Of a DNA stretch of 64,000 nucleotides, positions 1 to 64,000 are shown piece after piece. The stretch's first letter is position 1. The number at the start of each line of letters is the position of its first letter. A model generated the notes under the pieces. That model ran no database searches. It was not told the origin of the DNA and saw only the letters and a program-made list of their open reading frames with translations. The DNA comes from Patiria pectinifera (lineage: Eukaryota; Echinodermata; Asteroidea; Valvatida; Asterinidae): positions 25,007,513-25,071,512 of the forward strand of contig CM057147.1 in assembly GCA_029964075.1 (NCBI GenBank). The letters are read 5' to 3'. Position numbers and translations under genes: made by a program.

Positions 1-13
1 TGGGGGGGGGGGG

Positions 14-223
14 TAATTTGGAAGGACTAATTTGTGTACTGTTCATAATGTACTTTTGACAAGAAGTTTTTTTGTGTGACAAAAGCAAAAGCGCCCCCTT
101 ATATGTATTGCTGAACAGATTTTCTAATAATTGAAAAACTACCACTTTCTTGTCACTTCCAATGAAAACAAATTTGAAGATCTTGTATATATTGTTCCAA
201 CACATATAGTAACGAGCATGAAA
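14..223. repeat. Direct repeat copy 1, identical to the window end
   Basis: By eye every base from 14 to 223 matches 63791-64000. The only difference is the preceding G run (12 G here, 8 G at the other end). The offset is 63777. The match stops only because the window ends, so the true repeat may be longer. A contig start at a poly-G run followed by a second copy inside another contig is the usual signature of an unresolved assembly overlap. A real tandem duplication of about 64 kb would look the same. Confidence 0.95.
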
Positions 224-1278
224 ACTGGATGAGCTGAATTATTAACATTGTATATTTCATTTAAGTCGGGCACTGCTCCTTTGCTATTGTTCGCTATACT
301 CCCGGATGAAACACAAACAATCTTGCCATTAGCATTAACACTGCCTTTACCATGTGAGCGGGATGTGAATTGCAAAAAAACAATTCATTTCTGCACAAGC
401 ATTATGCAGATGTCATGTATCTTTTCTTTGTTTAGTTTAATGAATTGGTTCAATTTGGAACAACATGTGTTGTTTCTCAAATTTATTACAACTAGTGCAG
501 TGCCCGTCAAAAATGGGACTGTGTTCGGGGCAGCAATTTATAACTACTCATGCAGACAACGCACACGATTCGTTGTTTTCACAACTATTATGTTGAACTC
601 ACTCTCACAGGTTGAACGCACACTTTGTAGATGTTGCCATTCATTGGCACAGAAATGGTCTACTGCTGGTCAGTGCTAACTTGACAATGCATGAGTACAT
701 GTACGTACGTGCAGGGTACAGCCTGGTGTGTAATTAATATGGATTTCCCCAAAAGTAACCTTTCCGTTTTCCTTTTTTAAAAATGATAACAATTCCAATA
801 ACTGATGCAAGACATTTTGATGGTACAGATGCTTTAATTATAATTTTGTGTACAAATTGGCTTAGTTTTGTCACATCCAAAATGTCTTCTGAAGATCCAA
901 AATGTTTATGGCAAAATCCATTCTAATTAATTCCTAAATTAATGTCATTGCTCTTTGAATGATACTTAAACTTACTGTATTTGGTGTTGAACAGGGCCTG
1001 CACTCTCTCTCTTAAGTGAGATGTATCTTCAATGGTCTCCCTGCTGGTCGGTGTCTCTGCAATGCAAAATGCATATCATTGGGTGTTTTGTTGAGGAATA
1101 TACTGGCTCAACTCCCAATCTTGGTTTGTAGCCTCAAAGGGCTCGATCCAATGTGTAAATGTAAATAATTGATTTTTGTGGACCACAATTACTTTGCATG
1201 GGAATGGGGGAAAGAGAGTATATTTTACAATACAACAACATCGCGAGTTTCATGTAATCATAATAAAAATACTCTCAC
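224..1278. other. No supportable gene
   Basis: This should be intron of the minus-strand gene that starts at 4373. A minus-strand open stretch at about 139-346 has a possible acceptor, but I find no GT donor in the right phase, so I do not call it an exon. AT-rich, with no clear repeat. Confidence 0.5.
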
Positions 1279-9349: not shown

Positions 9350-12300
9350 TTATACATTAATTATATCCTCGACGTCGCTGTCATCTTCATCACTGTCGTC
9401 ATCATCACTCATATCATCCCAATCATACAAGTAAGCACTTGGCATAGTGTCATGAAAGGAAGGTTCAAACAATGCCTTATAATTTTCCAAATTTCTAGCT
9501 AGGTCGTTAATTTTGGCCCTGAGGAGAACTCCCTTGCCTAATTGACCCTCCCTAAGGCAAGTTGCACTAGCCTGCTGGTAACCCCTCAGCTGAGACCTGG
9601 TGAATTCTAGGACGTTTTTCATTTCTTGGGTCAGGATGGACTTCTCCTCAGAAGCCCTGTCCAGTAGATTTTGCAAATCTACCGCTTTCCGGCGGATGGC
9701 GTCTGGCAGTCGTGTCTGGTCCGTGTGCTTACTAACCTGTTTGTGGTGAGAACAATAAACTTGTGAGAATATATGTTTACAAAAGTGCCAATTATACGGA
9801 CTCAAAGACATTACAAGATTACTGAAGTGCAATTACAGATCCTAACGTTGTTAAAACCATTAGGCCGAACAATTGTTTTTGCCCTCATATGAACAAAATG
9901 GGGGGAGGGGTTAAGTACACATAGTGCATATAATAGCTAATCCTTCCTCTCATTGAAGATGTGGAAAGAACTGTCGATTTCCTTAATAACAGCCATTGTT
10001 AATAACTTTTGTATTCATATGATGCAATTATTGGGCCTGTTTTTGACCATGTTGAATAAAAAAGACAAGCTGGTGACACAACATCACCATCATGGACATC
10101 ATCACACAGACATTTAATCTTGGCTATCGTACCACACATGCGCCCAAGCGGCACAATATGCCGTTGGGCTTAGTGGAGAAGTAAATGGCGCGTACCAAGA
10201 AATTTCTCAGAATACTGAATTTTGATTTTGAGTCATGCTACATTTTTTTAATTTAATTTTTTAAATTTTCATTTTCAAAAGTCGACGTCTCCTATTCAAT
10301 TGTAGCAGACATGTTACTTTTAGTGAGGTCAGGTGAGGGCAACACAATCTTTTGGGGCTTTCAGTGGGTAATCCGTGTAGCCTACTGGTAGTTTATCGTA
10401 ATGTTTTACAATAAATACACCTCATCTTAAAGTTCCCACTGAACCGCAAACTAATACATGTAGATAGGAATTTACAATCACCATGTCCATCTCAGCATAA
10501 AGGTGTCCACTAGGGTCAAAGGCGTCCTTCAGGATAATGGACCGTGGGCCAACCAGAGTGAACTTCTCATTATTGTACACAGTAACAGTGCGCTTGATGG
10601 CCTTTGATGCCCGGGAGATTTGTTTTGATATCCTTTGGGCAATTGCCTGTCCCTCTGCATTAACATATAAAAACACATTGGGAAAAAACTTTGTTACAAA
10701 TAAAACTCAAAATTGCAAATGCCCTTTTAAGTTATTGATCAGCACTGGCAACAAAATTTCCAAGTTGTGATGGAGACACAGAAATACGAGTGTTCCTCTT
10801 TCTGAGTTTCAAGTTTCCAGTGTCAAGGTTCAAGTTCCAAGATTCCCTTAAATGCCTCGAAAATGCATACTCACACCTCTAGTGAATGCCTCCACAGTAT
10901 GAACATTTAGATGCACATATGCAAATTAACATCTAGCTGTACAGGTGCTGCTGTTCAGTTCACAGCATGTTTGCATTACACCAGTAATTTTGCTGCCAAC
11001 TGGGCACATAATAAGCTTATCTGATCATTGTTTACCTCTGCCGGACAGTTAGTTAATCTGATCTGTGGTTCTTGTGTCCTCATCAGGTCAACGCACTCCA
11101 TTAGAATATGGTGCTCACTGGTGTTGGTATTTATAGTAACACCATTCAAAATGATATGATGCCATAATTGTACGTTATTTATTTTGTTTCCTGATATATC
11201 TTAAATAAAATGAAATATCAAATGCTCTGTTTGAAGTATGCATTACTGTACGGTACTTCAATAGAGATAAAAAAAAATTGAATCAATGAACACGTACATG
11301 TAGTTTTGTTCTTTTCTCGCTCCATATTCAACAAAATGCATTATGCTGCGCGAAACAATTTGTATTTGAACAATATTCAAACTGGCCTGGAGCTGGCCAT
11401 AGGTGTAAACACAAACTCCTATTTGACTTGGGCCACGCATCATTGTGGTGGCAAGCAATTCCAGTCATACACTCAAAGTCTACATGAATTTTTCGAGGCA
11501 TTCATACACTGGAGTCTCGATGTATACAGGAATGTTCGAGGCATTCACTCGAAGTCTACATAAATTGTGAGGTGTTTAATGGGAAGTGGAAAGTGGAAAT
11601 GGGACTTTTCAAATCTGGAAAATCCCAACTACAAAAGTAATACATGTACTCCAGAAACACAGTTTGTACATAAACATAGACCTGCCAAGGTCAGGTAAAG
11701 ACAGTCTGTAACAGCTGTCTGTCAACACACTGGGGTCAATAGGCCTTGAAACTGGAGCCCTGGGCTAGCAAACAGCCAGCATGCATCAAATGCATGCTTT
11801 CACTAATACCAGCGGCAGTAGCTGGGCTGAGTGGGAATTGGGGAAAAGGGGATGGTGCATGCCTTGGCTGAGCACCCATGAATTAGAAGACTCACCTGAC
11901 CTTGGTGGCCATTAAAAAGGTTTGGTGTGATAGAGATAGTGGAATTTAGAAAGGTTTGAAAACGGTATATTTGTTGTTAATTTCATAATTACAATATTAA
12001 TCTCAAACTTTACCAAGGCTATGGCTATTGGCCAAATACCCGCCAATCATAAGGTTAAAAAAGGTGTCACAAACATAGTATAAAAACAAAAATGAGCACA
12101 TTGATCAGGTAAACAAAGCTATGTAATGTCTTATTACACGTATTATTATTACTTAAATGTGCAACATCAAATACCATTCCTTAGAAAATGATATTACACT
12201 TTATAAACAATAGAAGCATGCCAGATGATTTTGCAAAATACAAAGAGGAAAAGTAGAAATGGAAATGTACAACATCTCACCACTGTACTTGTTTTTAGTG

Positions 12301-15300
12301 TTCAGGCAAAACCTGTATTCTACCGATTCTCGCCACAATCTCTGAAGCAGATCCTGTTGTTTTCTTCTCTCCAGACTGGTACGAGCTACACGGTAGTCCT
12401 TCGAGTCCGAAGTCCATCTTTTTGGAATGTGGTACTTTGCCTCTGTTGACAGCAGTTTGGCAGACAATCTAGAATAACATTGTAACCTTTTACTTCAGCA
12501 AGTAAATCTAATTCTACCACTACATGCACTGTTGTAGTGTATTTACCTTGATTTGTACACAGAAATGATGTTTAATATATATTAAGAAAAAAAAAACATT
12601 CTATGCGTTTTTGTCAATCTCATGGTTCAGTCTTGTTATGTGGGAATGGGATCCAATGATTTTATGTTAGTTTTAAATCAGTGGACATTTTGTCTGACTT
12701 GCAGCAAATACGGAAAGGAATAACTTACTGTTCACTCTGTGTTATAAGAACACGCGTCCTTTTGGGATCGCTGCACAATTGCACCTGGTCGCTGTATGAA
12801 ATGATTAAATACCAACAATACAGTCAGATAATCTTGAGAGGACATACTGCATTAGGCACTGTGTACAAATTGAAAGTATAGTTACAGGAGACACAATTGT
12901 TTATACGATGGCTAACAACTTGCAACCAAAATGTCTGAGAAATATGGAATCAGATTACCTTTAACAAATTAATGAATTACTATTCTTATTCTGGGGCCAC
13001 TTACACCTCTATTATACTACTCGAAAACAGGTCACATTCATTTAACCAAGGCCAAATTGTGTGACTAAAAATAATAAGTAAATAAAAAAATTAAAAAAAT
13101 GACAACCTGGGGAGGGGGTCTCAAGCCCCCCGTGTGCCACTGGATAGGATACTAAGTTCCCATCAAAACGTAAATGCACACCACTATCTATACCCACAAA
13201 AGCACTGTTTGTATCTAACATCCACCAATGTAATCAAAAACAAACAAAACAAAACATAAGTAAGTAAAGTAAAAGACGAGACAGAAATAGAGACAGAGAC
13301 GAGAACAGACGAGACCAGACGAGACCAGACAAGACCAGACGAGCCAAACATACAAGACAAGACGAGACCAGTCGACAAGAACAATGTAAAATAAGATATA
13401 TTAAATTTAATTAAAAACAGAACAAAACAAAACTAAAATGAATCACGTGATTAATAACAAAATATTTCTGTGAAAGACATTGATGATTGATCAAACAATT
13501 CAAATTTTTGTTATGCCTACTCAACTTACAGATGTTGGTCATGATTCATAAGTAGATGTACATACTCTTCACGCCAACCAGTTTCTGTTCACCAAAAATG
13601 TGCAACATTGAGTCAGCACATATACACACAAAACAAATGTACATGTACTTTTGCGGGCCAGTGTCAATTCATAGCCAGGACAAGTAAGGGCCACAATATT
13701 GGGTATATTTGACATGATTCTCAACAACTTTCCTACAATGTTCTTGCAAATGATATAAACAGTTTTGCAAGTAAAGCAGCGGCTAATGTACAACACAAAA
13801 ACAAATACAGAATAGAATATTTACAACCAGTTGCTGGAAGATTGTCCAGGACATTAAATGAGATGGGTCCTCCCTAAGTATGAAGCATGAAGCCTAATTA
13901 TTTCTTTTCTTCAACCAAAAGATGGGTGTATGCACAGAATCAAATTACAAAAACTTCCAACAGTCACTTCATTTGTTTTCGAGTGCAGTCAGAAAGCCTT
14001 CATCCCTTCTAACAACTTTGATCTCAAATGCCTGTTTGTAAAAGAATCTATACAAACTGATTTACTGATTGCTTAATATGCAATCAGATGGATATTTCAA
14101 AAAGTATTTTGACTAGTACATATGAATACAGTTTGTCTGTTAGTCAATACGTACTTTGCTTTTTATTTGATGGCTTCTGTTCAGCATGAAGCCTGTCTGC
14201 TGCCTGTGCTTCCTTGACTGCAGCATGGGAAACTAAAAAAAAATGAAGCATTAGGATTTTCAATACAGCGACAAAAAAAAGCAAGAAAGGTGTACAATTT
14301 GAAAACTTGCTGTCTTACAAAAAGGTATAAATGACAACCTTAAAAGTGTGTAGGGCCTACATGTCCAACCACGACTAATAATGTGCTTTACTGAGTGAAA
14401 CCAAGAAAGTAAACCAATTATCAGGTACACAGCTGTGTCAAAGTCATCATCTTTTCAACATTGGTTTTAGTGTGCATTAGCGTTTTTGAAATGCTACACC
14501 ACAATGCTCCTGTTTATTCATGTAACAGTTCAGTGTGAAATACCTCAAAAAAAATTCAGGTAAACAAATCATAAAATTTTAAAACTAGTTATCTAACACT
14601 GAAAAAAACTTTGATGGAAAGTGCAGTACAGCAATTCACCATGCAGTGTTTCATACTACATGTATTTAATATGTAGAGGTCACATGCATGGTATAGTATA
14701 CAAATAGTGGCTCAGAGTGGAATTGGAGGAATATTATCACAAGGTAAAATATTGTTTTTCTTTCACGATGTGAAACCGAGCGAAATGGACAAGTCCTGAT
14801 TTTACCCAGCAATTTTATTCCTCCCATTTCACAATTTAAAGTCACTCAATATTTGTTTTATATTACTGACTTATAGACCCTTGTCATTTGATTTACAGTT
14901 AATGAACTTCTATTTCTTTACAACATTTTTGGGAAATGTATTTCTCTCGTCCAATCCACCCCTTCACGAAGTGTTTGAACCAAACTCTGTGTCGCTACTG
15001 GCTATTGGGAATGATGTGTGCTATTTGCAATGCTGAATGCGCACACCAGCATGCATTTGCATACAAATACCACACCATGCAACAAGGATTATCCTATAAC
15101 TATTGAATGGTAAATCCCATTCAACATGGGCGAATGGGACTTTTTTTTAGCGTCAGTTATGGTGTGCATGCAGACAGATGTTTGAAATGCATACACATGT
15201 ACATAGTATACATTTATGTAAACTCTTCATACAGAAGCACATTTGGGATTCAAGCTTACCTCCCCATTCAGCAAGCAGGGTATCAAGCTCAAGCTGAGAC

Positions 15301-44806: not shown

Positions 44807-44952
44807 GGCCAATCACGAGGCCACGGGATAAATGCTGCGGATAATTTGGTATCGCACTGACGCTCCGGGCACTCCTCATGTCCGGATCATAAGTGCGATA
44901 CCAAATTATCTGCAGAATTTAACACATCATGCACATGGCCTCGTGATTGGCC
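44807..44952. repeat. Foldback element
   Basis: GGCCAATCACGAGGCCA and TGGCCTCGTGATTGGCC form the outer pair. Inside, GATAATTTGGTATCGCACT mirrors AGTGCGATACCAAATTATC. A diverged relative lies at 45776-45930. Confidence 0.85.
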
Positions 44953-45035
44953 TGTCTGACCACAACAATAGAATACAGGGCCACTCCATTCTATATCCGC
45001 GCATCCATGGCTGCGTGGATGCGCAGTCAGTTTTC

Positions 45036-45390: not shown

Positions 45391-45472
45391 GGGTAGGTTG
45401 GGGTTGGTTTTAGATTGGGAAATATAGTAGTGGGTCCTATGAGCTCCGTGCGCTACCAAAAGAGGGCACCCT

Positions 45473-46415: not shown

Positions 46416-47147
46416 AGCGCCCTCACTTCACACTCATTCACTCTGTATACCGCCCTCTATTTTTTTATGTATCTATGTTCATACCGGACATACCTGCCAT
46501 TCTACTCAACGACCCCACTCCTATCCTCACATCGCATCCAACTACAAAGAAACCCTTTTCCGGCATGGCCCTGCATTCTATAGTTGCTCCGCCAACTGGG
46601 CACCCACCAACTGACACCAACTGGGCACCTAGCCAACTCAGCACTTGATCAACTTTGCACCTTCACAATACAACCAGTTTTGCTTTATTTCGCAAAATTA
46701 TTGCACTATTTCGCAAAATTACGGCATACAAGCCTATTTCACCAAACTATATTTCGCAAACCGGCTCCTTTTATTAAATAATAATTAATCTCGCGGGAAA
46801 GACCATCACCAATTTTTCCCTTCAGTGACCTATCAGCCGTCAGAATGTCCTAAAAAGTCAAATTTAGCAGGGAAAATATTGAAGTATTTACTGAGAAACA
46901 CTTACAGAAAGTTTCAGACCAGTCTCATACTGGGTTGGTGCATAGGGTGACAAGTGATGGCCAGATATGGGAATCTTTCCATATCGAGAATCAAAAGCAT
47001 TGCCTTCGTTATCTTCGAAAGTTAAAAGTGTAGTGCTTGACGAGAATGTCGCACTTTGCCGCTGACCAATAAGGCGCAGCGTGTTTTCGCGTGGGGCAGA
47101 CCAGGCTATTGTACACACAATCACTGGTCAACGTGACCATCTGTTGA

Positions 47148-47192
47148 ACAGTTAAATCACTTGTGCCGCCGCGGCACAAGTGATTTAACTGT
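47148..47192. repeat. Perfect 22-bp inverted arms with 1-bp spacer
   Basis: ACAGTTAAATCACTTGTGCC and its exact inverse around CGCCGCG. Confidence 0.95.
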
Positions 47193-47444
47193 AGCCAGCA
47201 TGTGATTGCTAAAGCAGTTTGTTTTGGGTTTTTTTTAGATTAGCTAATGTTTGTTGTATTTTGAAATGCACTTTCAAAGAAAATGTGACTTTCCTACCTC
47301 TTTTTGCCGTCAGAGACGTGAGACCTGTACGTTGTAGTTCTCCCAGTACGCATGAAAACCCGACACAATGAAAGCCTGATGCTGATTGGCTGATAGAAAA
47401 ACCTAGAAAAGTTTTTGTTATTATCCAATCAGCATCGAGCTTTT

Positions 47445-47808
47445 AATTCGGGCGATTCACAATGCAGTGCGCCACCAAGAGTTTGCCACGGAGAAATAAT
47501 TTTTCCTAGTGCATTGTGGGAGATGGTCAAAAAATTCGCAACGCGGGACATTTGAAATTGTTAGTTTTTCCGGCCAGAAAGTTCATAAGCATATGATTCA
47601 AGTATCTGTTTGCCCTTTTCTTTTTGTTTTATCAATATGGAGTTTTTTGTAAGGCGGTAGAATGCTTTGCCCCAATCTTTAACAAATTAGCTCAAGATTT
47701 CCACTGACACTCTTTCAAATGGGCCATGTTTTGTCGACCGTAAACTTGAAAAACAAACTGTCCGTGACAAACTCTTGGTGGTGCACTGCATTGTGAATCG
47801 CCCGAATT
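47445..47808. mobile_element. MITE-like element with 40-bp TIRs
   Basis: AATTCGGGCGATTCACAATG.. and ..CATTGTGAATCGCCCGAATT, continuing inward through CAGTGC and CCACCAAGAGTTTG. No clear target duplication. Confidence 0.8.
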
Positions 47809-48789
47809 GCATCTAGCTGTTATTGCATCTAGCTTTCAAAGTTGCCATCTTGAGCCTGTTTTCTGGTTGTTGTCGTCATCTTTTCCCCCATAATTTCCCT
47901 CAAAGTCCTGCCCTCTTCACACCAAATTAAACCTGTCATGTTCAAGAAGGTGTCATTACCAGCTGTTCATATGTGTCAAGAAATATCAAAATGTCACTTT
48001 TGAGTGTCATTTAGTTTGCTCTATATAGGAACGGAGTCCTAAAGATAGGATTACTCCAGTCCACCTATCAGCCATCAGAAAGCGATAACATGTCCTAAAA
48101 AGTCAAATTTAGCAGGGAAAATATTGAAGCATTTGATTTACTGAGAAAACCTTAGAACTGTTTACAGACCAGTATCATACTAGTAGGGTTGTGCACAGGG
48201 TGTCAAGTGATGTCCAGGTATGGAGCTCTTTCCCCTACTCCTTTTCACTGAATTTTGCTTTATATGTGAATCTTTAGGGTTTAAGTAGGTAAGAGGACTA
48301 ACAGGTTGGCTTGAAATTTCCATCGGCTCATGACTTGGGGACATTCAGCAGTAGGAAGATCTCCCTATGTCATGAACCTCCCTAGTCCAAAAATTTGCAA
48401 CTCTCAATAGTGGTGTATGAGAGTCCCAAACTTGCAAAACTTGCAATTTAAGAAAATAGATTGTGAAAAATATTGAAGAAAAGTCTCCTTTAAAAATTGA
48501 CTTGAGTCTTCCAACTGGGTTGGTGAAATACTGAGGACCTTTTTTTGGCCACATCAAAAACTTCGAGAAATTTGCTGGCTTAAGAGTGAGTAAAATATGC
48601 CAGATTTTGTTTTGAGTATTTTGAGCACTCATGGTCCAACACTGGATCCTCCCCATGTCATGAACCTAAAATGGTTAACAGTGCACTTGAAAAGAAAATT
48701 AGACGTGTGGACATTATAACATCCTCCATGATGTCGTTGTCATCTACTAAGCTAACAAAAAATACTTCTGTCTTTTGTTTTTAAACTAG

Positions 48790-51700
48790 AGGGCCTAGAT
48801 GCTGAAAAAAACAGATTCCAAGTGGAGCTTGAGTTCGTCCAGTGTCTTGCTAATCCACATTATTTGAATTGTAAGTATTCCAGACCACAACGTTCAGACT
48901 GTTTGACTGTTGATCAACTTGACTGGCAACTTCTTGTCAGTCAGTCAGTCACTGTACACCTTTCAGCCTTTGGCAGGACATCCATCGATACAAGTTGACG
49001 TTTTGACACACAGACCAATCAAGTTTTAAGTCAACATCAACTCTGCTAAAACTGACCAGGTCACTTTTCCCGAGACGATAAGTTCAGTGCGGACAGTGCG
49101 AGTCGGTAAAAGCTGCTCGGGAAAGCGTACATCCGGCGTACGTCATGCATACAGAGACCGCACGAACCTGCACGTGCAGTGGCCGAATATTTTGTAGAAA
49201 CACGCTGCTGTGTATCACCAAGTCCGAGCGGTAAAATCTCGTTAAAAATATATTTCAACGGAGAAATACATACACAGAGAAGAGATCACGTTCTGAGAAT
49301 TAATTTGCAGAAATTCTCTTTCACCAACGATGTATGTTAGGTATTTTCTCGGATCCAAATTCGTCATGTTACGCTACTGTAAAGTCATGCACGGTATATC
49401 ATGGTCCGGTACCGTACGTAGGCCGTAGTCTCTGGTTCCAGTCCCACATCATAGCCTTGATTCTGTTAGCATGTAATGGGAACCAACAAATACCGATGGC
49501 ACTGCTGCCGCACGGAACATATCGTACAGCGGCATGGCTTCGATGTCGTGCATCACAAATGCGTCAGAAATATAGGCTTTTTCGTCAAGATTTAGCATGT
49601 CAAGATGAAATAATATCATGTTAACGATTATGTTGTGCATGCAAATGGCGTGTGTAATATTACTGTGCGTATCGGCGGCTGAAAATGTGATCGGCAATTT
49701 GTTTTCTGTGTACGGTGAGTCATTATACTGATACTCTGACACTGACAGCTCGGTTACTTCTCCCACGCGGTCAGGGTAAAATTTCCTGTGTCGAAAGTCC
49801 AAGTGCGGACAGTGGTCACATTTGACCATTTCTCATTTTACCATCGTCTCGGTAAAACCTTCCAAACAAAAGTCCAGTGCGGACATGGCTTGTAACTGGT
49901 GACAGCATTTCCAGCCAGATTAAGTTTACACATTGGCTATGGGTGAATTGTAAAGTATTGTCAACATGGCTGGTGCTGTGCAGACCGATGGTCATGGTAG
50001 ACGTGGTCTGTTGTTCATGTTTGCTGTACAGTGCACAGCGGAACTGCAGACATACATAGGATTTGGCTACTGCTGGATGCATCCAGTCAGATCAGATTAC
50101 CAGATACAAGGGTCTGACACCACAGTTACCATCAACTGCATGTTTCATTTTTTGCCAAAACTGTTTGTTGTGGAAAACTATTGAGATGCATAAATTTTGG
50201 AAATTTTCACCAGCCAAACAACCCCAGTATCACCGACCTGACAACATAAGAATGTCCATACTGGTACCTACAAGTTGTGCTTTTACATAGGTGCCTCTAC
50301 AGCATCATTCATCAGTACGAATGGTACTGCAGAAATAAGTAAATCATATTAATAAATACCTTGGAGAGTTGATGGTTTCTGATTGGTCGAGACTCAATCA
50401 CGTGGACGGGCATTAACGGTGATAATGGACCGGCTTCAAAGAACAAGCGAATAAATGGCCCTGAACCAGCATTGATCCAGCCCCGTTCAGCCCCATGCAA
50501 GCCAATGATTGGTCCAAATATAGTAACAGTCCTGCGGTAGCTTGTAACAATAGAGCACTGTACATGCGCTCAACCCCCATCGCGTGAGACTGACACGCGC
50601 GTATGCAACACAGTTGCTAGGGATGCGTGCGTGTGCGCGCGTAAGGAAGTTTTGAAACGACATCGTACAGCAGTGCAGTATATACTGAGGATGTTTACGA
50701 CGAAAGCGTAGATCTACAATTTATTTTCTTTGAACACTTCATTCACCGACATATTTACCTTTCCTAAACCAAGCATCTTTGTAATTCCGGACACAAGGAA
50801 TGTGTAAACGAGATTTCAGCTTCCTCCATCAGGTAAAGATATGAAAACATTGTTGTAATTTGTTTCGCTATGGCAGCAGTTTCTGTTAAGTTTACGTCAT
50901 TATAGCTGTTCAACTAAAATATGGCCCATGAACATGAACACAAAAAAAGTCTGGAAAGTCAAAAAAGTCCGAAAGAAAGTCACAAAATTGGAGCATTTTA
51001 ACTGTTTATTTCGTTAAAAAGGTATTTATTAATGGGAATAACAGTGTGAGGATCCGGTCTTCACTGCGTGATAATGACCGGGTATGGGGATGACCGCTGT
51101 TAATGGACCTCGACTTCGTCTCGGTCCATTAACAGCGGTCACCCCCCACAGCGGGTCATTATCACACAGTGAAGACCGGCTCCTTACACTGTTATTCCCT
51201 TAGTAAAGACCGGCTCAGCAAATCACTTTCCACTCTATAAAATAATTGATTAACCAAGCTCAGCCTGTTCACACCCCCTAGGCTACCACAGCCCCACCAA
51301 GCCAACTACTCGGCATCCAGTTGACCAGCAGTGGCAGACACACAAAGGTTCCATGAACCACAGAAATAGGAAGACATAATCGTCTCAACAGACGACTGTT
51401 GTGATGTAGTAAGGGAATTCGGAAAGAAATAGCGGCACAATTCTATTCTTACAAGTGCTTATTACGTTTTATATTGAAATTATTGACAAAGACCAATCCA
51501 ATGATACTATATTGTTCTAAATAGCCAATGAGAAGACAGGAGTGTGGCCATACATATTTTGTGTTTTGTGTGCTTTAATATGACAACATTCTTATGTGAC
51601 AACCTGTCTTTTCAGTCAAGCACACAGCAGTCAACTGTCGAGTTACCACAATGGTTCAGTTGTCTCAATAGTCAAAGTGGCTCAAGTATTTGATCTCTGT

Positions 51701-52077
51701 TACAAACCATGTTTTCTTTTTTATAGTACCATTTTTCTCTGCCCAAATTCCATCTGTGCCTGCCCCAAGTGGAACATACATGTTACACATTTAGGCACAG
51801 GTCATAATATGTATTACTACACCTGATAAATGTTCATGACCAAATTGGAGCATGTTATTTGCTGTTTCCGCTGTCTGGGAAGTAAAAATGATACGCACCC
51901 AGCAAACCATGCATGTACTACCACACCTACTTTGTATCTGTACTCTGTATGTAACCAACATTTTGTTTCCTTGCTTACAGTTATTGCACAACGTGGATAT
52001 TTCAAAGATACCAAGTTTGTCAACTACCTGAAATATTTGCAGTACTGGAAAGAGCCCCAGTTTGCCAAATACCTCAA
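48790..52077 (+). CDS. MED31: Mediator subunit MED31, exons 2 and 3
   Basis: Exon 2 is 48790-48870 (acceptor TTTAAACTAG, donor GTAAGT) and encodes GLDAEKNRFQVELEF then VQCLANPHYLN. Exon 3 is 51981-52077 and encodes FIAQRGYFKDTKF then VNYLKYLQYWKEPQFAKYL. These are the conserved N-terminal and central parts of MED31. The phases fit (1 between exons 2 and 3; exon 3 leaves phase 2). The next exon should begin with an A completing Lys and then Tyr-Pro-Gln-Cys. No such exon follows to the end of the window, but exactly that exon is at 34778. Exon 1 was not found; it may precede 48790 or lie outside. Mediator acts in the nucleus in RNA polymerase II transcription. See findings for the order problem. 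Confidence 0.95.
49050..49890. repeat. Possible decayed TIR element in MED31 intron 2
   Basis: TTTTCCCGAGACGATAA near 49068 and TTACCATCGTCTCGGTAAAA near 49839 are inverted. CAGTGCGGACA motifs also occur near both ends. No target duplication found. Confidence 0.4.
51034..51199. repeat. Long hairpin, about 166 bp
   Basis: GGGAATAACAGTGT at the left and ACACTGTTATTCCC at the right. The inner arms CGGTCTTCACTG, GATAATGACC and GCTGTTAATGGACC are all mirrored. In MED31 intron 2. Confidence 0.9.
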
Positions 52078-52685
52078 GTAAGTTTGTTTGTTTAAAATCC
52101 AAGGGTTCACTGGATTCATTGTTTCTTTCTGCATACCTTGATTGTCAGGGTTTTCATGGCTTGGTCTGTTACTCTTTCTCAACCACCCGATTCACATCGT
52201 ATCTGTATGATACTACCATCATGGTGGTACGATTGTTAGATGGTATTATCATGATGTGTTATAGCATCGTAACACGTATTATAATGTTTTATGATATTAC
52301 CATACAACTTCCTTTGCGGAGATTTCATGTATTATGCATGACTTTTTTCCGTGTATGAACCAATGGTGTTCGTGGCTTCATTTGTCACGGGCACCGTGAT
52401 CCCGGTTCGGCTCGGCGGAGCGGCGTCGCATACGTGGCCCGACACCTACCCCGGCCGTACGTCACGCTGGCCTGGCCCTTCGATGTGAGTGCATGCACAG
52501 TAGCCATCTTGGACCCAAAGCGTATATGTTGCGTGCAAATCATTTACCGAGAAAGGTCAGAACAACGGAATGAAAACAAGGCGAAGAGCTGGTTGTGTAA
52601 AGGTCTGTTCCTACTTTTTTTTTTTTTACTAATTCTAACATTTAGAGAGAGTTGCTTTTAGGCCTACTTATGTCAGTGACCCTGT

Positions 52686-53152
52686 TAGCCCCATTAATGT
52701 GGCCTATTTACTGGACTGCCTCCGTAAACATAGGCCACACATCCACATGTACAAAAACGTGTCGCACTTTGCCAAATTTTGATTTTCACATTTAGGCTTA
52801 GTTTGTAGGGGTTTTTTTTGCTTTAGAAGCATACTCACCCTCTTTATAGGCTAATTAGAAAGTGCTGCCTTTTTCAGATGTATATTTTGTGTGAAATTCC
52901 AGATTCATTTTTACATGTTTGCATATCAAAATTTCATCATGAAATTTCACAAAAATTAGACATCTGAAAAAGGCAGCATTTTCTGACTAGCCTATAAAGA
53001 GGGTGAGTATGCTTCTAAAGCAAAAAATTCCTACAAACTAAGCCTAAATGTGAAAATCAAAATTTGGCAAAGTGCGACAGTTTTTGTACATGTGGATGTG
53101 TGGCCTATGTTTACGGAGGCAGTCCAGTAAATAGGCCACATTTATGGGGCTA
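52686..53152. repeat. 467-bp foldback with about 210-bp arms
   Basis: The left arm starts TAGCCCCATTAATGTGGCC and the right arm ends GGCCACATTTATGGGGCTA. Blocks such as TTTACTGGACTGCCTCCGTA and CTTTATAGGCTAATTAGAAA are mirrored with few mismatches, so the insertion is fairly recent. Confidence 0.92.
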
Positions 53153-53635
53153 TGACCCTGTATGAAAATCCTGTCATTGCCGCAACTTGCATATTACTAG
53201 GACTATAAAAATTAGAAAACACATGGTTTTTCTCAGCTGTAGACACAAATTTTGTTTACATTTTGTTGGGGGGGGGGGGTAAGCGCTGCTATAAATAGGG
53301 CATTTGAATGGAGAGGGCAGTATTTACGAACTATTTGAGGTACATCACACCCCCACCCCTTAATCCCCCCCCCCCCCGCCTATCCCTGTTGGCTCAATCC
53401 TGTACTGAATTTTAGATTACTTCTGTTTTTTTTTCTCAAAAAAGAAAATCTTCCTGAATTGTTTTGAAAAGAAAGCAAAGGGGATTATGGTGATGGCAGA
53501 AGGGTCGGCACATAGTGTGGGAACATTTATCAATAGGGAAAAATCGTATTAAAAAGGCATTTTATTCGTTGCAGATGTTATTGCGGTTAATATTCCGTAA
53601 CGGATTATGAAATGTAAATCCTTTCCCCTTTGCAG

Positions 53636-56600
53636 CTCGGAGCTAACGCTGAATGCCGTGTGGAGGGCTGTCCACAGTATGGGAAGGTGACCGTCAGACT
53701 CGATCGCCATCTGGTGAGGCAGCATCAACTCAGCAGATCCGAACATGACAGCCTCCCTCAGTGTTCAGCTGTCAAAGCTCGTCAACAACGGTTATCGAGA
53801 AAACAAGAAAGATGTCTGCTAGATGGGTGTATTCGCAATAATGTTTTTTATTGCAATTTGTCAAAGCATCTGCGAAACATGCATCAAATGACACGACAGC
53901 AATATAGACAAAAGTAAGTTGGAAACTGGATAGGGTTAGATAGATCCTTGGGCATTCAGTTATTTACATGCTGTCGTTGTTCTCACACTGCATCTAGCAC
54001 TTTTATCAATGCGTACCATGTTGACAGAAGATTGGATTCTGTTACTGTGATTTTTCTTCTTTTATGTGTTTTTGTTGTAGATTGTCTTTCGGAGAGGAGG
54101 AGATTTTGTCTTTTTCTATAGTTCAAGGTTTTACCTTGACCCAATATTAATGATGCCGAAGTGGGAACAATGATTAGCCGGGGTATAATAGAGGCTCTCA
54201 ATAAGTTAGTCAGATTCCAATATGGGCAGTATAGTAGAGCATATCAGCTACAAAAACACACCCGCGAAACCTATATGGAGCAAGTTTTTTTACCTTTATT
54301 AGCCTACATTAAAATGAGATAGTTTATCACGATACTGGAACTGATGTTATATTAAATTAACCCTCTTTACTGATATAATTAAGAGCCAGACAAACATATT
54401 TGCAGACAAACCCCAATGATAGATGTCAGATTTTAGGGTTTACACACTTTTCCCCATTGGTTTTTCTGGTGTGAAAAAAAAATTCTGGAATCATGTAGGG
54501 AACAAAATAGTTTCACCAGCCCAATTCTAAAAGATTTATGCGGGCAAACCTTTGACACAAAATGATGACGAACGGTAATTAACAAAGAACATCTTAGCAT
54601 CTTGAAGATCTTAAATTCTTTAACGCTATACAAACTGTGGATTTGAACTTCACTAAAATAATGATCGCACACGTCCTTTCCATGAGTGTCGCGAGGGGGG
54701 GGGCAAGGGGGGCACTTGCCCCCCCCCCCCTTCCCCCCCCCCCTGAAAATGCAAAAAAGGAAGAAAAAAGGGGGGGAAAGGAAGAAGAAAAGAGAAAAAA
54801 GAAAAGAAAAAGATGTGCGAAGTCATAGTGGTGTAAATTTAATGGGGGGGGGGCAAAATGTCCCTGCTCCAATCAAAAACTTATAAATCCAGAATGTGTT
54901 GAGCAATACAAAAAAAATTGTTGAGCAAAAAAAAAATTGGCCCCTCTACAAAAAGTCCTGGCGACGCCCATGGTCCTTTCGCTGGGTTTTAATACACACC
55001 AGACAGCAGTCACTATAGAAGGATTGTTTTCTTTGCAAGGTTTTGCGATTTTCGTTACCGGTATTTATTGCATGGGGGCACTATATAGTTGGCCTCATTT
55101 TCAGCAGGCGCATTCATACAATAGTACTCCAATAAAAGGGTTATTTATATCTCCACTATTTGAGAAATGGTTTTGGTTGAGATGGGGAGAAAAAGTGTCG
55201 GGGGGTTAACACCTCGGATGTGGATGGGCGTGACCCAACACCACCCTCCTTTTTTGCAACACTATAATGATATTCGTTGGGAAAATAGTTTTTATGTATT
55301 TATTATTATGACATTGCCTAGACAATGAGAGCAGTTTGGGGGCAGTTTAGCCATTTTGTGTTTTGGTAGTGATGGCAATGATTTTGACAGTGACGGTGAC
55401 GACAATGACGATGACGCCAATTCTTACTGGTCTAAACGGTTATCACCAAAGAGTTTTATTGTTTGTCTCTTTGCTGAAATATTCTTTTTTGTTTATTTGT
55501 TTAGGCTGGAGTCCGAAGAAGATGATCCAGCTTGCTCACTGGTGCTGCGGTCTAAATATTCTCCTACCCACTGTGCGGAAGGTACGGGCTCGATAGAGTT
55601 TTTGTTTGTTAAATTGTGTTTAATTTCATGGCCATTGATGACATCTAGATTCAAAAGATAAGACACGTAAAATGTAATTAGTATGTTTTTAAACATTGCA
55701 GGATAGTTTTGTAATCAATTTTCTAACCAACAATTCAGTCTTTTGGAGAACCCCCTAATATCCATCCGCAAACATGTCCAGTTTTCAGAACTTGTTCCCC
55801 ATTCGTCATGGAAATACCCATTTGAGGTCATGGACCCATTTCAAAACGGCGGAGATTACTTGAAGTCAATTTCTGTCACATTTTTGGTTAGCTAGTTTTG
55901 CTTGTAACAAGTAAAATGTATGCGTGCAGGCCTATACAGGTATTATACAGAGGTTAAAATTTTCATGTTCATGAATACTTAAACCTCTTTTTTCTTAAAT
56001 ATAGAATGTTTAAACATTAAAAAAAAACTTGTTAGTAGCATTAATTAGAGTCTTTCTGGCTTCCAAGAATTAAAATTGGTAGTTTTTGTTCTCAAAATGA
56101 CAATTTAAGAAATGTATTCACAGAGGATGAAAAGTCCACTTTAATTTTGAAAGGTTGGCAAGTGTGTAAACAATCAATAACAAGCAATTTCTCTTTTCTA
56201 CAAGCAATTTTCTACATATTTTCTTCACGTTTCCGAACTTCAACTGTGGAAAGGAACAATTGTTCTCCTTTTTTTGACATGCATTTTTCTTTTATTTTAT
56301 TCAGGTGATGACTGCCCTGCTGTAGTGGAACATCCATCGAGCAAAGACTCTCTATGTAGTTCAGGTATTTACTATTTCCCTATGTTTTTACTTATACTGA
56401 GTGATTGCACTAAGTCAAAGATTGACTTTTCCATTTCATTTTTAATATTTAATGAATGTATAATTGTATCAGATGTTCGACATACATGGGCCCATCAGGC
56501 GTTGAATATGCATTATTAAAAGGAATACTTTCGTGTTCGTTTTTTGTTCATGTGTATTTAAACCTGTGATGATCCGGTCACCATTAATTAACGAATATGC

Positions 56601-57095
56601 ATGTTTCCCTCTTCCCGCATTTTTGAAAAGAAATATCAAGAGTCAGTGATAAAAGTCATCTTTAACTGACTTTCGGTTGTTTTTCCTTAACAATTTCAAG
56701 TACTGGTGACAAAGCGGAATTAAAAGTACTCGTACATGTATTTTGACACTTTTTCAGGTTGTGATTCCTTGCCCTTCGACGAGGACACGGAACCAGGGAC
56801 GACGAATCTATATCCAAAGGTTCAACTTATCCAGGTTGAAATGGCTTTGGATAATTTAGTAATCGTGAGAGAAAGATTGCCTGCAGTACAGACGTTCGAT
56901 GGGAACCAACATGTATCCCGGTTTTATTTAAAAAAACATTTGATATCAGCTGAACACTGGTTGGCATTCATAAATTCTTTAGAATCATCTGGGAAGTTTG
57001 TGACCAAAGGCGCTTTTGGTACTTTTCAGTACGAATGTTGCCTGTGTAATCATTGGCACAGACTTTCCATGTGGGGAACACCTTCCCTGTATTGA
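53636..57095 (+). CDS. Two-finger C2H2-like gene, 3' part (four exons)
   Basis: Exons 53636-53913, 55505-55581, 56305-56364 and 56758-57095, with AG/GT borders and matching phases (0, 2, 1, 1). The first exon encodes two zinc-finger-like units: CRVEGC..RLDRHLVRQH and CLLDGC..LSKHLRNMH, each with CxxxxC and HxxxxH spacing. This suggests nucleic-acid binding. Two short symmetric exons encode acidic, serine-rich linkers (LESEEDDPAC, DDCPAVVEHPSSK). The last exon reads CDSLPFDEDTEPG, then KKHLISAEHWLAFINSLE, and stops at 57093. I do not recognise its family. The first visible exon begins in phase 0, so exons upstream (5') are missing from this model. A MITE with a clean target duplication lies in its first intron. 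Confidence 0.7.
54681..54972. mobile_element. hAT-like MITE with 8-bp duplication GTCCTTTC
   Basis: The ends CATGAGTGTCGCGAGG and CCTGGCGACGCCCATG are inverted. GTCCTTTC is present at 54673-54680 and 54973-54980. The interior has long C and G runs and an AAG-rich tract. Confidence 0.85.
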
Positions 57096-57282
57096 ACTGC
57101 CTCCCAGTTGTCCATGCAAAGTTTAGATTAAAATGGAATAAATCTTATTTTAAGACATTTGTGTTATAATGTTTTGTGTATAAGATATCTTGACCAAAAA
57201 AATCTTATTCTCTTGCTGCTCTCCCACCGGCCATAATTGAAGGAAGCATTTTATTTTTTGTTATTCCAGGTTTTGCAATCTG

Positions 57283-57605
57283 CAGGCGCGGATACAGGGT
57301 GTGGGGGGGGGGGGTTCAACCCCCCTGCCCCAGCTTGTCTTTTTTTCTATAAAAATTCATGAATCCCCCGTCTGACACCCATTTTTTTTATACTGGTAAT
57401 ACTGTCCGCCTTTGCACAAAATACGGACAGGGCCGGATTTCTCTAGGGGATATACATGTATATACACTATTGTGTGATAATAGTGTTAATTATCGTCGGT
57501 TTTGAACAACGACCCTTTTAAAAGTGCGAACCCCCACCCCCCATTTCAGATTTGTTTTGCACATGGACACCCCCCCCCCCGCAAAAAATTCTGGATCCGC
57601 CCCTG
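57283..57605. mobile_element. hAT-like MITE, CAGG..CGGAT ends
   Basis: CAGGCGCGGATACAG and CTGGATCCGCCCCTG are inverted, with G and C runs just inside each end. No clear target duplication. Confidence 0.65.
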
Positions 57606-58776
57606 CTCTGCATTACTAAAATAAGGGTTGTGTGCTGTTCTTCCCAGACGTACCGTTCAGTGCCACTACAGTTTAATGAAAGGCGGTACCCTTGCACGAT
57701 TTTGAGAGAAAGTCCAACTAAACTTTTCAGTTGCTATAACCGGGGAGCTAATTGTTTTAACCTAGAATTTTAATTGAATAAGAATAAAACTATAAGCTTT
57801 ACAATTTTTGACATTTTATGTTTTTGCATTAGGCTTTATTTTCTGTAGGATTGTCTTGTTAAATAAATCTCCTTGGATCTCTATCACATATATTTAAGAA
57901 AATGATCAATTGTTCTTCATTAATTTGCCTGAAATTTGTATCCAATTCTAACAGGTCATCCAATTTAAATGTGTTCTTGCCTCGTGTTCACTGTGCATAA
58001 CGGAAGTACGTACATAATGATTTTATTTTTAAAAAACCTGATCTCCTATGGATTCCAGCTCTCACAAAACTACTTTTAACATACAATTGAAAAATAAGGT
58101 GTACAATGTAAAAATGTGAAAAGATTCATTAACAGTTGATAAACATATATTAGAATATAATACAAAACATCACTGCAATATGACATCCCCCTGTTCTATT
58201 TGTCTTGGGTTTTTTTTCTTTGGGGGGTGTATATATGCATGCAGTCTCAAAACCGTTCAAATAATGTGGGATGTGGTTAATAAGGTGCAAGTGAATTTAG
58301 GCATTTAGGTTAGCAATAATATCACACAAGCTCCTGAATTTGCACAATAAGCTACTAATAGCCATAAAGTAAAGGACATTATACCCCTACAATATTGAAC
58401 CAACTTTGTTATGTACCACTGATTACTGACAGATGTCGTACTTTGGTTGATAATATATCATTATGGGGTTTTGTAGCCTGGGGAAGCTGTAATCGCCGAT
58501 ATTGATGAACATTTGTCGGGTTTTATAACTGTCCATAAAATCAAATTGAAAAAACGGTATCCTCAAAATTGAAGCAGATTTTTGTTTATAAACAACATTT
58601 TGTTAACAATATCAACCAATTGGACTGAAGCTTGATTTTTTTTTTTACAAAAACAAATAGGGCCTACTTAAAGTTTACAGCGAAAGAATGTTATAAACTG
58701 GTCGATATGAACTATTGAATTATAATTTACAAAAGCACCAAAACAAAGAAAATAGCATGAACATTTACATGAAGCG
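57606..58776. other. Intergenic between convergent genes, no gene seen
   Basis: 3' flanks of the zinc-finger gene (plus) and the chromodomain gene (minus). AT-rich, with no exon or repeat that I can support. Confidence 0.45.
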
Positions 58777-59125
58777 TTAATTTGCCTTTAGTTTGGATTG
58801 GCTAAACTGTAGAATCATCTTCCTTGGTATATTCCAGCTGGCTTCCCAAGTGGCCTCTTCTTCCAGGTAGCCCTCCCAGTGTACCAAATACTGTACCTTT
58901 CCACGTCTGATACGTTTTTTTATTAACTTCTTGATCGTGTACAGGACTTCAGATGCGTGGTTGGCCTCCACGCTTTGTTTTAGGATTTTTAGATCCGTCG
59001 GCAAATCGTCTTCATCTATGGAATAAAAATGTTGGTAATTAGTCTTAAAGACAACATATTCACGAATAGGCAATGTCCAATATGAAAGTATTTTCGGTGG
59101 TGCATTGTGTTCATGGGCGTCGTCT

Positions 59126-59157
<32 letters not shown>

Positions 59158-62100
59158 AGCAAATGCCTTGATACTTGTTATGTACCTTCTCTAGCATATT
59201 CTTATTTACTATTTCTTTATCCCCCGGCTTTGAATCCACACGTATTGCGATCGCGTATTCCTTCTGTGTGGGTGCGTGCGTATGTATGAAAGACAGAGCG
59301 TTCCACTTCGGTAAGGTTCATTGAAAGTATACAGTCGTCAATCTCAACCGAACTTGATATGTGGTTTGCTCATTGTATCTGGTAAAGTGATTAGACTCGA
59401 GCAACAGGTCATGACCTCCGGGGCCACTCTGGTCCTAGGTAGCCAAAGATTTATGTCACTTTGTTTCTCTAGTGTCGTGAAAGTTGACCTCCACGGCTAC
59501 TCTGGTCCTATCAAGGGCGGATCCAGGGGGGGGGGGGCCAAAGGGGGCATCCCCCCCCCCAAAAAAAACCACGAAACCAATTTTTTTTTTATGTAACATC
59601 GCAATAAAGGCAGGCAATGAGTACACCACCATCCTTAAAAAAAACATTGGTTAAAGTGGTCAGAAATTGCCTCAGATCGCACCACAGAGCATGTAGAATC
59701 CAATTTTTTTTCGGGGCACTTAAGCGGGCCCCGAACCCCACGCCGTAATTTTTTTTTACCCTTCTTTTTTGGGGAACCAAATTTTGTTTTGGTCCCCTCC
59801 AAAATTGTGTTCTGGATCCGCCCTTGGGTCCTATTGCCAAACCCTGTTGCGAGTCATGACTCATTTCAGTTTGACATGTACATGTACACTGAAAACTGTT
59901 GTTAGACATGTGCACTTTCCTATGGAGCCAGTGGGGCCCACTGTACGTCACACGTAAACAAGGCGTGATGTCATTAGTACAGAGGCTTTTTATTGCTTAT
60001 TATTTTTTTTTGGGGGGGGAGCTTTTCCCTCGATATTTGGATATCGGTGTATGCAGACTATTTTTCCTTTTTTTGGTTTTGTTTTCTCCTTTTTCTTTTA
60101 CTTTTTTTTTTTTCTTTTTCCTTGAATGGATATACTCGGTGTACATGTAGATTTTCCGTAAACAATCGATACAAAAGGGAACTGAACGAGAACGCGGCTT
60201 TATCACTTGAGGGATTGTTTCAAATTAAATGCTTACAGGCCCAATAATTAGGCCCATGCATATTTATGTATTTTACAATGTTAATGGTCAACCATGCTTA
60301 TGGTAGAGGGTAGTTTGAGCAGCAGCAATCACACTGCATCGCGTATCCAGGTCGGGGAGAAAGGTCTGAAAAAGAGAGAGCCTTTTTTTTTGAAAAATAA
60401 TGAGTGAAAGGGGATTTTTCTCGTCAATGACAGCTAGGTTACATGGGAAACATAATATTTTTGCCCCTTCCCCTTAAAAAACACCTAAGTTTTGTTCCCC
60501 CAAAACGTGCACGGTTCTGGGTCCGTCCTTGAGCGTCCACGCCGTTCACAGAATCATTAATTTAGCCCAACAGTCTCTGAAATCATTGAAGTATTACCTC
60601 CACTGCTGCTAATGTCCTCGCTGTCGGAAGTGTTGGACTGGACACAGTCGCTTCCGTCTGAGTGCTCTGGGGAAGGCCGCAATGATAAAATCGGTTGTAA
60701 ATGGCATGCATCAAATACCATAAAATGAAAAACAGCTTGTCACAGACAACCCAGCTGCCACACAGGAAACCAACAAGCAACATTAAAAATGCTCCCAGCT
60801 AGCTAAATGACCCCTTCCAAAATGTGAAAGGCTGGCTGTGATTTCTTTAAATGGATTTATATATGCGGGGAGGGGGGTGGTGGCGTGTATTGGCATTTAT
60901 CTATGGGGAACCATAATTGCCTGATTATGTTAAAGTAGTAGCAATTCCAAGTTCATTTATTTCCTCAGTTGTTGTATCTTAATGGATCTTCAATTCTCAT
61001 CAAACACTTACCTGACTGACAACTTTGCCCTGCCATCCCTAATTGGTTGTTTCCGATGTTGGCACTGGACATGTCCTCTACTTCATCTAAAGTAATAAAA
61101 TAACATTAAGTATTCCTCTCTTTTTTTACTGAAAATGGAAGTTTTATCTTTAGGCCCCACATGTTTCCCAAGACCATATTCGTCCCAAGCCTTTACAAGA
61201 CTCAAACAGTACAAGATTGACAGTTTTCTACTTTGCCAAAAGGGGTTGTACGGCTTAACCCTGGACTGGATTTACTGAAAGTTTATAACTAAAATTGAAT
61301 ACTGTTGTTTACAAAAGTCTGTACATTCCAGTTAATAAATGCTATTATCTCAAATTCCTACCTGGAGGACTAACTTCTTCTTGTACGTTCATGTCTAACT
61401 GCTGCAGATCCGCCGTGTCCGCATCTGCGTGGGTGTGGTTTTAATAGAATTTGTCATCGTTGTCAAAACACGGCTTACCCTTTTTATATATGATGAGTGT
61501 GTTCGATTACTTCCCTCAGCTTACTCGCGCCCATGGGCGTCGCGCGCACTCCCCCCCCCCCCCGGAAAAGCACACAAAAAAAGAGGCGGTAAGTAGGCCC
61601 TAATAATGGTGTAAATTTAATGGTGGGGGAGGGGGGAAAATGTCCCTGCCCCCTCGACAACTGATAAATCGAGAAAATGTTGAGAGGAAAACTGTATTTT
61701 TTTTTTGTTAAAATAGGCTTCTATTTCCCCCCCCCCCCTTTTTTTTTTTTTGGCTTCTTTACCGGGAGGGGGGGGGGTTGCAACCTGACGCCACTTTTTT
61801 TTTTCTTTGACGGTGATTCATCGTAAAATTATGATAGGACCCGAATCTGGGACTGAGAAATATTTTTCAATTTTGTTAGGAAATACTTGTTCTCGACTCT
61901 CCATAGACTTTGTACACAATCGTGGCAGTGGCGTCAGGTTGCAACATTTTTCCCAGGCTGCATCCGAATCAATTATGTCTAGATCTCGTCCATACCCAGT
62001 GAAAATACGCGGGACGCGCTGACAAAATTCGTCGCCCTAGCTCCGTGCTTAGAGCTACATAGGGTTTGCCCATGCTCCGTGGAAGCCCATTTCGGACACG

Positions 62101-63225
62101 GCCTGAGGCGCCCACCGGACGTTGCATGGCCTTATGGGATACTTACCACGTAAGCGGCTCGGCGAGTCGGTCACTTTGGCCAGGCTCGAGTAAGCGCGAG
62201 AACGTGAGAGGTAAATCGCGCGGGGGAAGTAATCGAAAGCACTAACATAAGTCACACAGTACAAGATTGACAGTTTTTACTTTTGGCAAGAGGGGTTGTA
62301 CGGCTTAACCCTGGACTGGATTTACTGGTTTATAACTAAAATACTGTTGTTTATAAAAGTCTGTATATTCAAGTTAATAAATGCTATTATCTCAAATTCC
62401 TACCTGGAAGACTAACTTCTTCTTGTACGTTCATGTCTAACTGCTGCAGATCCGCCGTGTCCGCATCTGCGTGGGTGTGATTTTAATAGAATTTGTCATC
62501 GTTGTCAAATCATTGCTTACCCTTTTTAGTAAATACCAAATTGTGAATCATCTGACATTTTTCTTGCAACAAAAACTCGAAATCAGCGTTGTTGACACAT
62601 GCAAATTGTGATGAGATCATAACACTTGAGTCAATCTGTCATCATAATACTGGAGTCAATCCGTCGTGAGGTGACTATTTAATAAGTCATCCCTCAATGC
62701 ACACATTCTCTAGGGGCACTGAATGAAGTCAAACTGTTTGTGGCTTGTTGTCCGTAAAAGAAAATGAGGGTCGAAGTTTTAGGACTGAATACAAGAAGGA
62801 AATGGATGTTTACAACGATGGTTTCAATAACAATTATGCGCAACTTTTAATTGTAATTCGTCCCAAAATCTTGCCAATAATTTGAATTGCAATCGATACA
62901 AATTAAAATATGCGAACATGAAAGCCATCCGTTCCGCAGATTTTATATTAGTTTTCTGAAAATGAATTCCCATCTCCCAGCACTATGACAACCGACTGAT
63001 TACATGTACAGTATTTAACTTCTGGAGTCTATTTCCATTAAATTCATGTTCCCTTCTCACCTTCTCGACGAAACAACTTAATGTTGTCCTTTGCCGAAAC
63101 TATCATTTGCAGTTTTTTTCTGCCATAGGCAGAAGGCCTTTTAAGGGTAACGCCTGGAGGCATACCCACTGCCTTAATTTCTGAGAGATGCTTATAAGAC
63201 ATCTTCTTGTGTCCCGTTGCTTCCT
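58777..63225 (-). CDS. Chromodomain gene, 3' half (six exons visible)
   Basis: Exons (minus): 63225-63061, 62466-62404, 61424-61362, 61086-61012, 60666-60598 and 59015-58777 (stop). Every junction is phase 1 with AG/GT borders. The first encodes EATGHKKMSYKHLSEIK, then TLKRPSAYGRKKLQMIV and DNIKLFRR. The next four encode short acidic linkers; two of them (62466 and 61424) are a duplicated exon (DADTADLQQLDMNVQEEV). The last exon holds a chromodomain: LYTIKKLIKKRIRRGK, VQYLVHWEGY, EEATWEASWNIP. The Tyr, Trp and Tyr of the usual methyl-lysine cage are retained, so binding to a methylated histone tail is plausible (inference). The first visible exon needs a phase-1 partner upstream, beyond the window end, and the minus-strand 5' half ending in phase 1 at 1279 is the candidate. 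Function unknown. About 224 codons are visible. Confidence 0.8.
59512..59826. mobile_element. hAT-like MITE, copy 3 (clean ends)
   Basis: CAAGGGCGGATCCAGG and CTGGATCCGCCCTTG with exact 8-bp duplications GGTCCTAT (59504-59511 and 59827-59834). Same interior as the copies at 1634 and 33255. In the last intron of the chromodomain gene. Confidence 0.93.
61200..62525. repeat. Tandem duplication of an exon with its intron flanks
   Basis: About 61205-61480 and 62255-62525 are copies (ACAGTACAAGATTGACAG to GTGTCCGCATCTGCGTGGG), offset about 1042. Both copies keep the 63-bp exon and its splice sites. Only one residue differs (Pro versus Leu near the exon end). The segment between includes G and C runs and an inverted pair TTCGATTACTTCCC at about 61503 and 62225. 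Confidence 0.9.
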
Positions 63226-63790
63226 CTGCATAACACACACAGAATTCAGATTTATCAAAATTAAAAATATAATTGAACACACTGAATTTGAAGTTGACTT
63301 TGCAACTATAAACTGACGTGTTCGTCCGTATACTTGAGGTTCCTTATTTTTCCAAAATATTTGTTCAAGGTTGGTATCTAAATGTCATGTTGTTTGGTTC
63401 CATCATGTGATTAAAAGCCTTAGTAGGCTACTGGTAAGGATGCTGTCGCTTATATAGGGACCATGCAATGGGATTTTTAAATACATTTAAAACAGCTTTC
63501 TTGCCATGTAGGCCTAACTATAACTGTCTATAACGTGTAGCAGTAAAAGGTGGACATTTCAACATTTCAATTTTTATGCTAATGAAAATTTCCATATTCA
63601 TGCACCAAAGTGTGATGTCATTCACGGCAGAGCAGTGTCTGCGAAGCTTTGTGCATAAAATATAATGTATTACACTTTTCTTCATTTTCTTGAAGTAAGT
63701 TCCACTTTTTACTTGCTTGAGGTGTTAAAGAGCTTGTTTGGACAATAGTAATGGCCAATATTTCTTCAAAGCTTTTTTTTTTGGGGGGGG
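63226..63790. other. Intron of the chromodomain gene, no exon seen
   Basis: Lies between the first visible chromodomain-gene exon and the terminal repeat. No exon with matching phase found. Confidence 0.4.
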
Positions 63791-64000
63791 TAATTTGGAA
63801 GGACTAATTTGTGTACTGTTCATAATGTACTTTTGACAAGAAGTTTTTTTGTGTGACAAAAGCAAAAGCGCCCCCTTATATGTATTGCTGAACAGATTTT
63901 CTAATAATTGAAAAACTACCACTTTCTTGTCACTTCCAATGAAAACAAATTTGAAGATCTTGTATATATTGTTCCAACACATATAGTAACGAGCATGAAA
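63791..64000. repeat. Direct repeat copy 2, identical to the window start
   Basis: Matches 14-223 base for base and is cut by the window end. Preceded by TTTTTTTTTTGGGGGGGG, so unlike copy 1 its left flank is visible. Confidence 0.95.

Follow-up and report, generated by a model that had tools for sequence, protein, structure and literature searches.

KDZ (Kyakuja-Dileera-Zisupton) DNA transposons are on record from fungi, algae, fish and nematodes as well as further animals, one of them a sea star (PMC9297572). The same paper describes animal Zisupton-type genes as multi-exonic and notes related sequences in, among other species, the sea star Patiria miniata. Target duplications of 8 bp are produced by Zisupton and by a Dileera family. 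Two fungal Kyakuja families produce 7-bp duplications and combine CA..TG ends and TET/JBP genes with an absence of inverted repeats (PMC12730594). In the fungal element KDZ1, which is ~11 kb long, the inverted repeats measure 241 bp and the duplications 8 bp (PMC12810828). The accessible part of PMC7599744 makes no statement on element size, and a literature search on Zisupton with sea urchin found nothing. Here we describe a 64,000-nucleotide stretch of the Patiria pectinifera genome (the window) in which a predicted KDZ transposon of 36–39 kb is present twice. One insertion probably interrupts an intron of the Mediator gene MED31, at a locus where the assembled order is most likely incorrect.

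Results

The window spans C19:25007513–25071512 on a scaffold of 34.6 Mb, in a genome of 613.5 Mb and 1020 contigs. Coordinates are window positions, negative to the left of the window and above 64000 to its right. Flanks of 60 kb leftward and 80 + 10 kb rightward were fetched and compared. X denotes the flank left of element copy 1 and W the flank right of copy 2; flanks Y and Z and the other features needed first are as follows.

-11543 to 24171: element copy 1, 35,715 bp, its right part (1–24171) in the window; from alignment with the fetched flanks and the inverted-repeat end
24153–24171, minus strand: right terminal inverted repeat, reverse complement CACCCGATACACATCGTAT
24172–24178: target-site duplication TCTCAAC, start of flank Y
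24172–43983: flank Y, 3′ part of the MED31 amplicon unit
34778–35081, plus strand: MED31 last exon to stop codon; PF05669 43.3 and 42 bits; AG acceptor
43984–44483: 500-N scaffold gap, read from the sequence
44484–52183: flank Z, upstream MED31 side, up to the insertion point
48790–48870, plus strand: MED31 exon, the first one found here; PF05669 31 bits; splice signals read
51981–52077, plus strand: MED31 exon; PF05669 45.6 bits; GTAAGT donor
52177–52183: target-site duplication TCTCAAC, end of flank Z
52184–52202, plus strand: left terminal inverted repeat CACCCGATTCACATCGTAT, an 18/19 inverted match to the right end
52184 to 91066: element copy 2, 38,883 bp, its left part (52184–64000) in the window; from alignment with the fetched flanks

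As a sequence-only reading of the window had pointed out, MED31 exons 51981–52077 and 34778–35081 stand in reversed order on the plus strand. Both score above the PF05669 cut-off. Insertion of the element appears to separate them, as it sits 106 bp downstream of exon 51981–52077, in the intron. Comparison of the 7 bp at each flank gave a complete match for Z and Y (7/7, TCTCAAC), with only 2/7 for Z/W, 2/7 for X/W and 0/7 for X/Y. C1 carries two head-to-head copies in which Z passes directly into Y and TCTCAAC is present once. The uninterrupted site was found as the exact string TCTCAACAAATG in 15 of the 16 other MED31 copies read, and 0–10 mismatches in ~738 bases were counted among the empty-site copies and the joined window flanks. 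The shared target duplication and the contiguity in these 15 copies indicate that flank Z truly precedes flank Y. The insertion probably postdates the amplification of MED31.

The two element copies were next compared by global alignment. They differ by 234 mismatches in 35,550 aligned bases (0.66%), and copy 2 carries ~3.1 kb extra near 85892–89026, a segment that matched only itself in a comparison limited to the fetched region. Neither copy contains N. Homology between them begins and ends exactly at the inverted repeats; both open with CACCCGATTCACATCGTAT and close with its inverted form (18/19 matching), giving termini of CACCC...GGGTG, i.e. CA..TG. Searching the whole genome for the inverted-repeat pattern (≤2 mismatches) gave 12 matches, and a reversed control gave 0. 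Full-length end pairs were limited to the two C19 copies. C16 holds an independent, internally deleted copy of 6.7 kb with a perfect 7-bp duplication (GTTTTCC), C21 a left end with ~1 kb of element, and C7 a tip only. The four C22 matches consist of the right tip plus at most dispersed repeat; at C22:19.72–19.77 Mb, four right inverted repeats with a few further bases each follow nearly identical unrelated sequence.

Profile scanning of 10 ORFs, 5 of which gave no match or none counted as meaningful, identified the KDZ transposase domain PF18758 at 15737–16060 (51.7 bits, cut-off 26.6) and the cysteine cluster CxC2, PF18803 (32.2 bits, cut-off 27). A KDZ family search of the genome returned 6 matches at 4 loci, namely C19 twice, C4 and C7. 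The C4 locus aligns to 10 stretches of the element in the same order, from 21165 down to 12249, and the transposase is therefore predicted to be multi-exonic. The element has motifs LDGNF, YDIAC and DGETMERLW, with similar forms in the C4 locus; they may represent the catalytic D, D, E triad. Exon boundaries below are approximate, only those of MED31 being exact.

20908–21165, minus strand: transposase N-terminal cysteine-rich exon; resembles the C4 KDZ locus, no Pfam match alone
19556–19987, minus strand: transposase CxC2 exon; PF18803 32.2 bits
17538–18189, minus strand: two transposase exons, 17974–18189 (motif LDGNF) and 17538–17671, the latter frame-shifted in copy 1 relative to copy 2
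15737–16816, minus strand: three transposase exons with KDZ core motifs YDIAC, HSYGH and GLTDGETMERLW; PF18758 and C4 similarity
9353–12494, minus strand: C-terminal transposase exons; 12249–12488 C4-like, 9353–9832 by inference only
58780–59190, minus strand: chromodomain ORF within the element; PF00385 45 bits
63047–63343, minus strand: GTF2I-like repeat ORF within the element; PF02946 34.8 bits, cut-off 27

On its sequence features, the repeated unit is identified as one giant 36–39 kb KDZ cut-and-paste DNA transposon present twice. Within the superfamily it is predicted to lie nearest Kyakuja by target duplication and termini only, yet it has inverted repeats. A KDZ transposase, the 7-bp target duplication and CA..TG termini are common to both (PMC12730594). 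The 19-bp inverted repeat, the length of 36–39 kb, and the chromodomain and GTF2I-like ORFs set it apart from fungal Kyakuja as described there; TET/JBP genes, a fungal Kyakuja feature, were not searched for over the whole element. The 7-bp duplication alone is not decisive for Kyakuja, because fungal hAT7 elements likewise make 7-bp duplications (same text). A KDZ domain and multi-exon transposase are shared with Zisupton, from which the element differs in having a 7-bp rather than 8-bp duplication at two independent sites (TCTCAAC at MED31 and GTTTTCC on C16). Relative to KDZ1 as available in PMC12810828, it has a 7-bp duplication and 19-bp inverted repeat in place of 8 bp and 241 bp. It is also longer than the single KDZ length at hand (KDZ1, ~11 kb), no search for the largest KDZ element having been made.

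The amplification of MED31 was then considered. A family search of the genome, in which only the best candidates were scored, placed the MED31 middle exon at 17 places, window included. Contigs with MED31 copies were C1, C102, C120, C125, C149, C242, C257, C284 and C1006, with a spacing of ~49–83 kb between copies on the unplaced contigs C102, C120, C242 and C1006. Flank Z is present in 17 places (main pieces 98–100%), with a further partial piece on C648, and Y was found in part on C1. Sequence comparison accordingly places MED31 in a segment that was recently amplified to about 17 copies. Family matches fall almost solely in this multi-copy segment; only one match on another chromosome passes the cut-off, an isolated last exon on C7.

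Flank Y contains a ~7.9-kb extra segment (26332–34254) in the same MED31 intron that is missing from the two C1 units. It encodes a DDE_Tnp_4 transposase and a YqaJ nuclease, with a THAP match below cut-off, a set presumably ISL2EU/PIF-Harbinger-like. Judging from exon spacing, the remaining copies that have both exons appear to lack this segment or to hold something shorter. A satellite with units of ~410–413 bp, ~24 copies in 10 kb and 97% matches, was noted at C242:94001–104000, on a MED31-bearing contig.

Discussion

The assembled order reads X-element-Y, gap, Z-element-W. The alignment of X with C3 (91%) stops precisely at the insertion point, beyond which C3 has other sequence. W begins within a short repeat, other copies of which extend leftward with sequence missing here. 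Most of the pieces that aligned between -11544 and 112550 occur more than once (the element, Z, Y in part and W); the exceptions are the 3.1-kb extra of copy 2 and the 7.9-kb extra of Y, with neither of which a genome-wide search was made. The next N gap beyond the window (112551–113050) is again exactly 500 N, so the gap length is probably nominal. Within the 68-kb contig between the two gaps (44484–112550), Z, the element and most of W recur elsewhere, with some short pieces unaligned. With little to anchor this contig, the simplest reading is a misassembly across the repeat.

W has an inverted copy at 122775–143837, whose two long pieces match at 97.7–98.6% and a third piece at 90%. The near-identical inverted stretches 91715–112550 and 122775–143837 flank the next 500-N gap, with a break at a CA microsatellite, and are probably an unpurged haplotype or an inverted duplication.

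We favor, with a probability of roughly three in four, a KDZ insertion in the MED31 intron, a true order of Z-element-Y, and an assembly that switched between element copies. The assembled X-element-Y and Z-element-W would then combine parts of apparently three insertion sites, with misassembly the most likely cause. By analogy with the family, the transposase would bind the inverted repeats, excise the element and insert it at a staggered 7-bp cut; repair of this cut would create the target duplication. The transposon would have inserted in the intron after exon 51981–52077 of one amplified MED31 unit. X and W may each flank a further insertion of this element, with putative duplications AAAATTG and CCTGTGG, and the assembly would have switched between near-identical copies that its reads could not span.

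Several observations weigh against this proposal. The misassembly is inferred from sequence alone, and a divergence of 0.66% would be sufficient for accurate long reads to separate the copies. The third element copy required by three sites was not seen, only two full-length end pairs having been recovered genome-wide at ≤2 mismatches. The sixteenth MED31 copy (C1006, 65919) departs from the alignment ~13 bp before the insertion point and is followed by other sequence. A genome-wide search was made with the C3 continuation, not with the left side of the W insertion, and gave only C3 itself and a dispersed repeat.

Alternatively, the assembled order may be real, a MED31 unit carrying the element having recombined, perhaps in the form of an excised circle, with a different copy on this chromosome to leave MED31 circularly permuted. 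An element-Y...Z-element arrangement is the expected product of a circle integrating homologously through the element, no N lies inside either copy, and Y and Z are part of a multi-copy unit. However, X and W share no target duplication (2/7) and a second, earlier event is therefore needed; the inverted recurrence of W beyond the next gap also points to general assembly trouble here. We consider this order unlikely to be genuine. Marginally more doubtful still is the broader proposal that giant transposon copies serve as recombination landing pads, moving MED31 units between chromosomes and leaving circularly permuted units between direct copies. Two other readings were rejected. X/Z and Y/W have only short repeats in common, unlike a simple allelic haplotig of the whole stretch, and hybrid-end transposition yielding X-element-Y and Z-element-W in one step is inconsistent with X and W lacking a common duplication.

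The sequence-only reading had instead moved contig B (44484–64000) whole before contig A (1–43983), with the left window edge as a contig end. This would account for the MED31 exon order and the Z-Y adjacency, and its direction holds, as Z does precede Y. The block swap itself does not, since only Z, the element and Y belong together, with the real boundaries at the element ends (52184 and 24171). Contig B runs through the element into W, not Y, and the flanking sequence refutes the swap as stated, making it very improbable. The poly-G run at the left edge, taken as a contig break, is part of a T-run/G-run inside the repeat (T10+G12 in one copy, T10+G8 in the other). The edge lies inside a contig that reaches at least 60 kb further left without any N; it is not a contig break, because the window is an arbitrary cut of the scaffold.

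A tandem duplication of ~64 kb had also been offered, based on the edge repeat at offset 63777. This repeat is real (6–223 = 63783–64000, 218 bases, 100%), and its extent inside the window is artificial because its ends are set by the window edges. It continues in the genome, where window 6–1000 equals C19:25071295–25072289 at 100% and 6–22138 matches 63783–85902 at 98.6%. Homology nevertheless covers 36–39 kb only and stops at the inverted-repeat ends. In the fetched right flank past 91066, Y gives just 8 short matches to W (longest 549 bp at 72%) and Z none. Across the 60 kb fetched to the left and 90 kb to the right, element copy 2 is not followed by another 24172–52183, so that the duplication is refuted there and its likelihood is negligible.

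The remaining sign of misorder was a minus-strand gene split between the window edges. This sign was confirmed in part: its chromodomain and GTF2I-like ORFs were recovered, both within the element, and their union into one gene is a candidate only; the proposed exon near 1279 gave no Pfam match. The stretch left of the window is simply the other copy of the same stretch. The three signs called independent are not so, because all come from one transposon present twice. A real problem had thus been seen and assigned a simpler cause than the likely one.

Outside these features, a reverse transcriptase ORF (PF00078, 59.9 bits) was noted at 41886–43253, close to where contig A ends. A phage collection searched with 44484–45500 gave no match, and an Rfam scan of the window and 6 of 57 loci gave 0 matches.

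This locus indicates that a single recent giant DNA transposon can look like scaffold misorder on three seemingly independent counts. Target duplications together with empty sites provide a direct test of which joins are true. It adds a predicted 36–39 kb element with 7-bp duplications and inverted repeats to the KDZ superfamily, and exposes a MED31 gene found almost only in a recent multi-copy segment.
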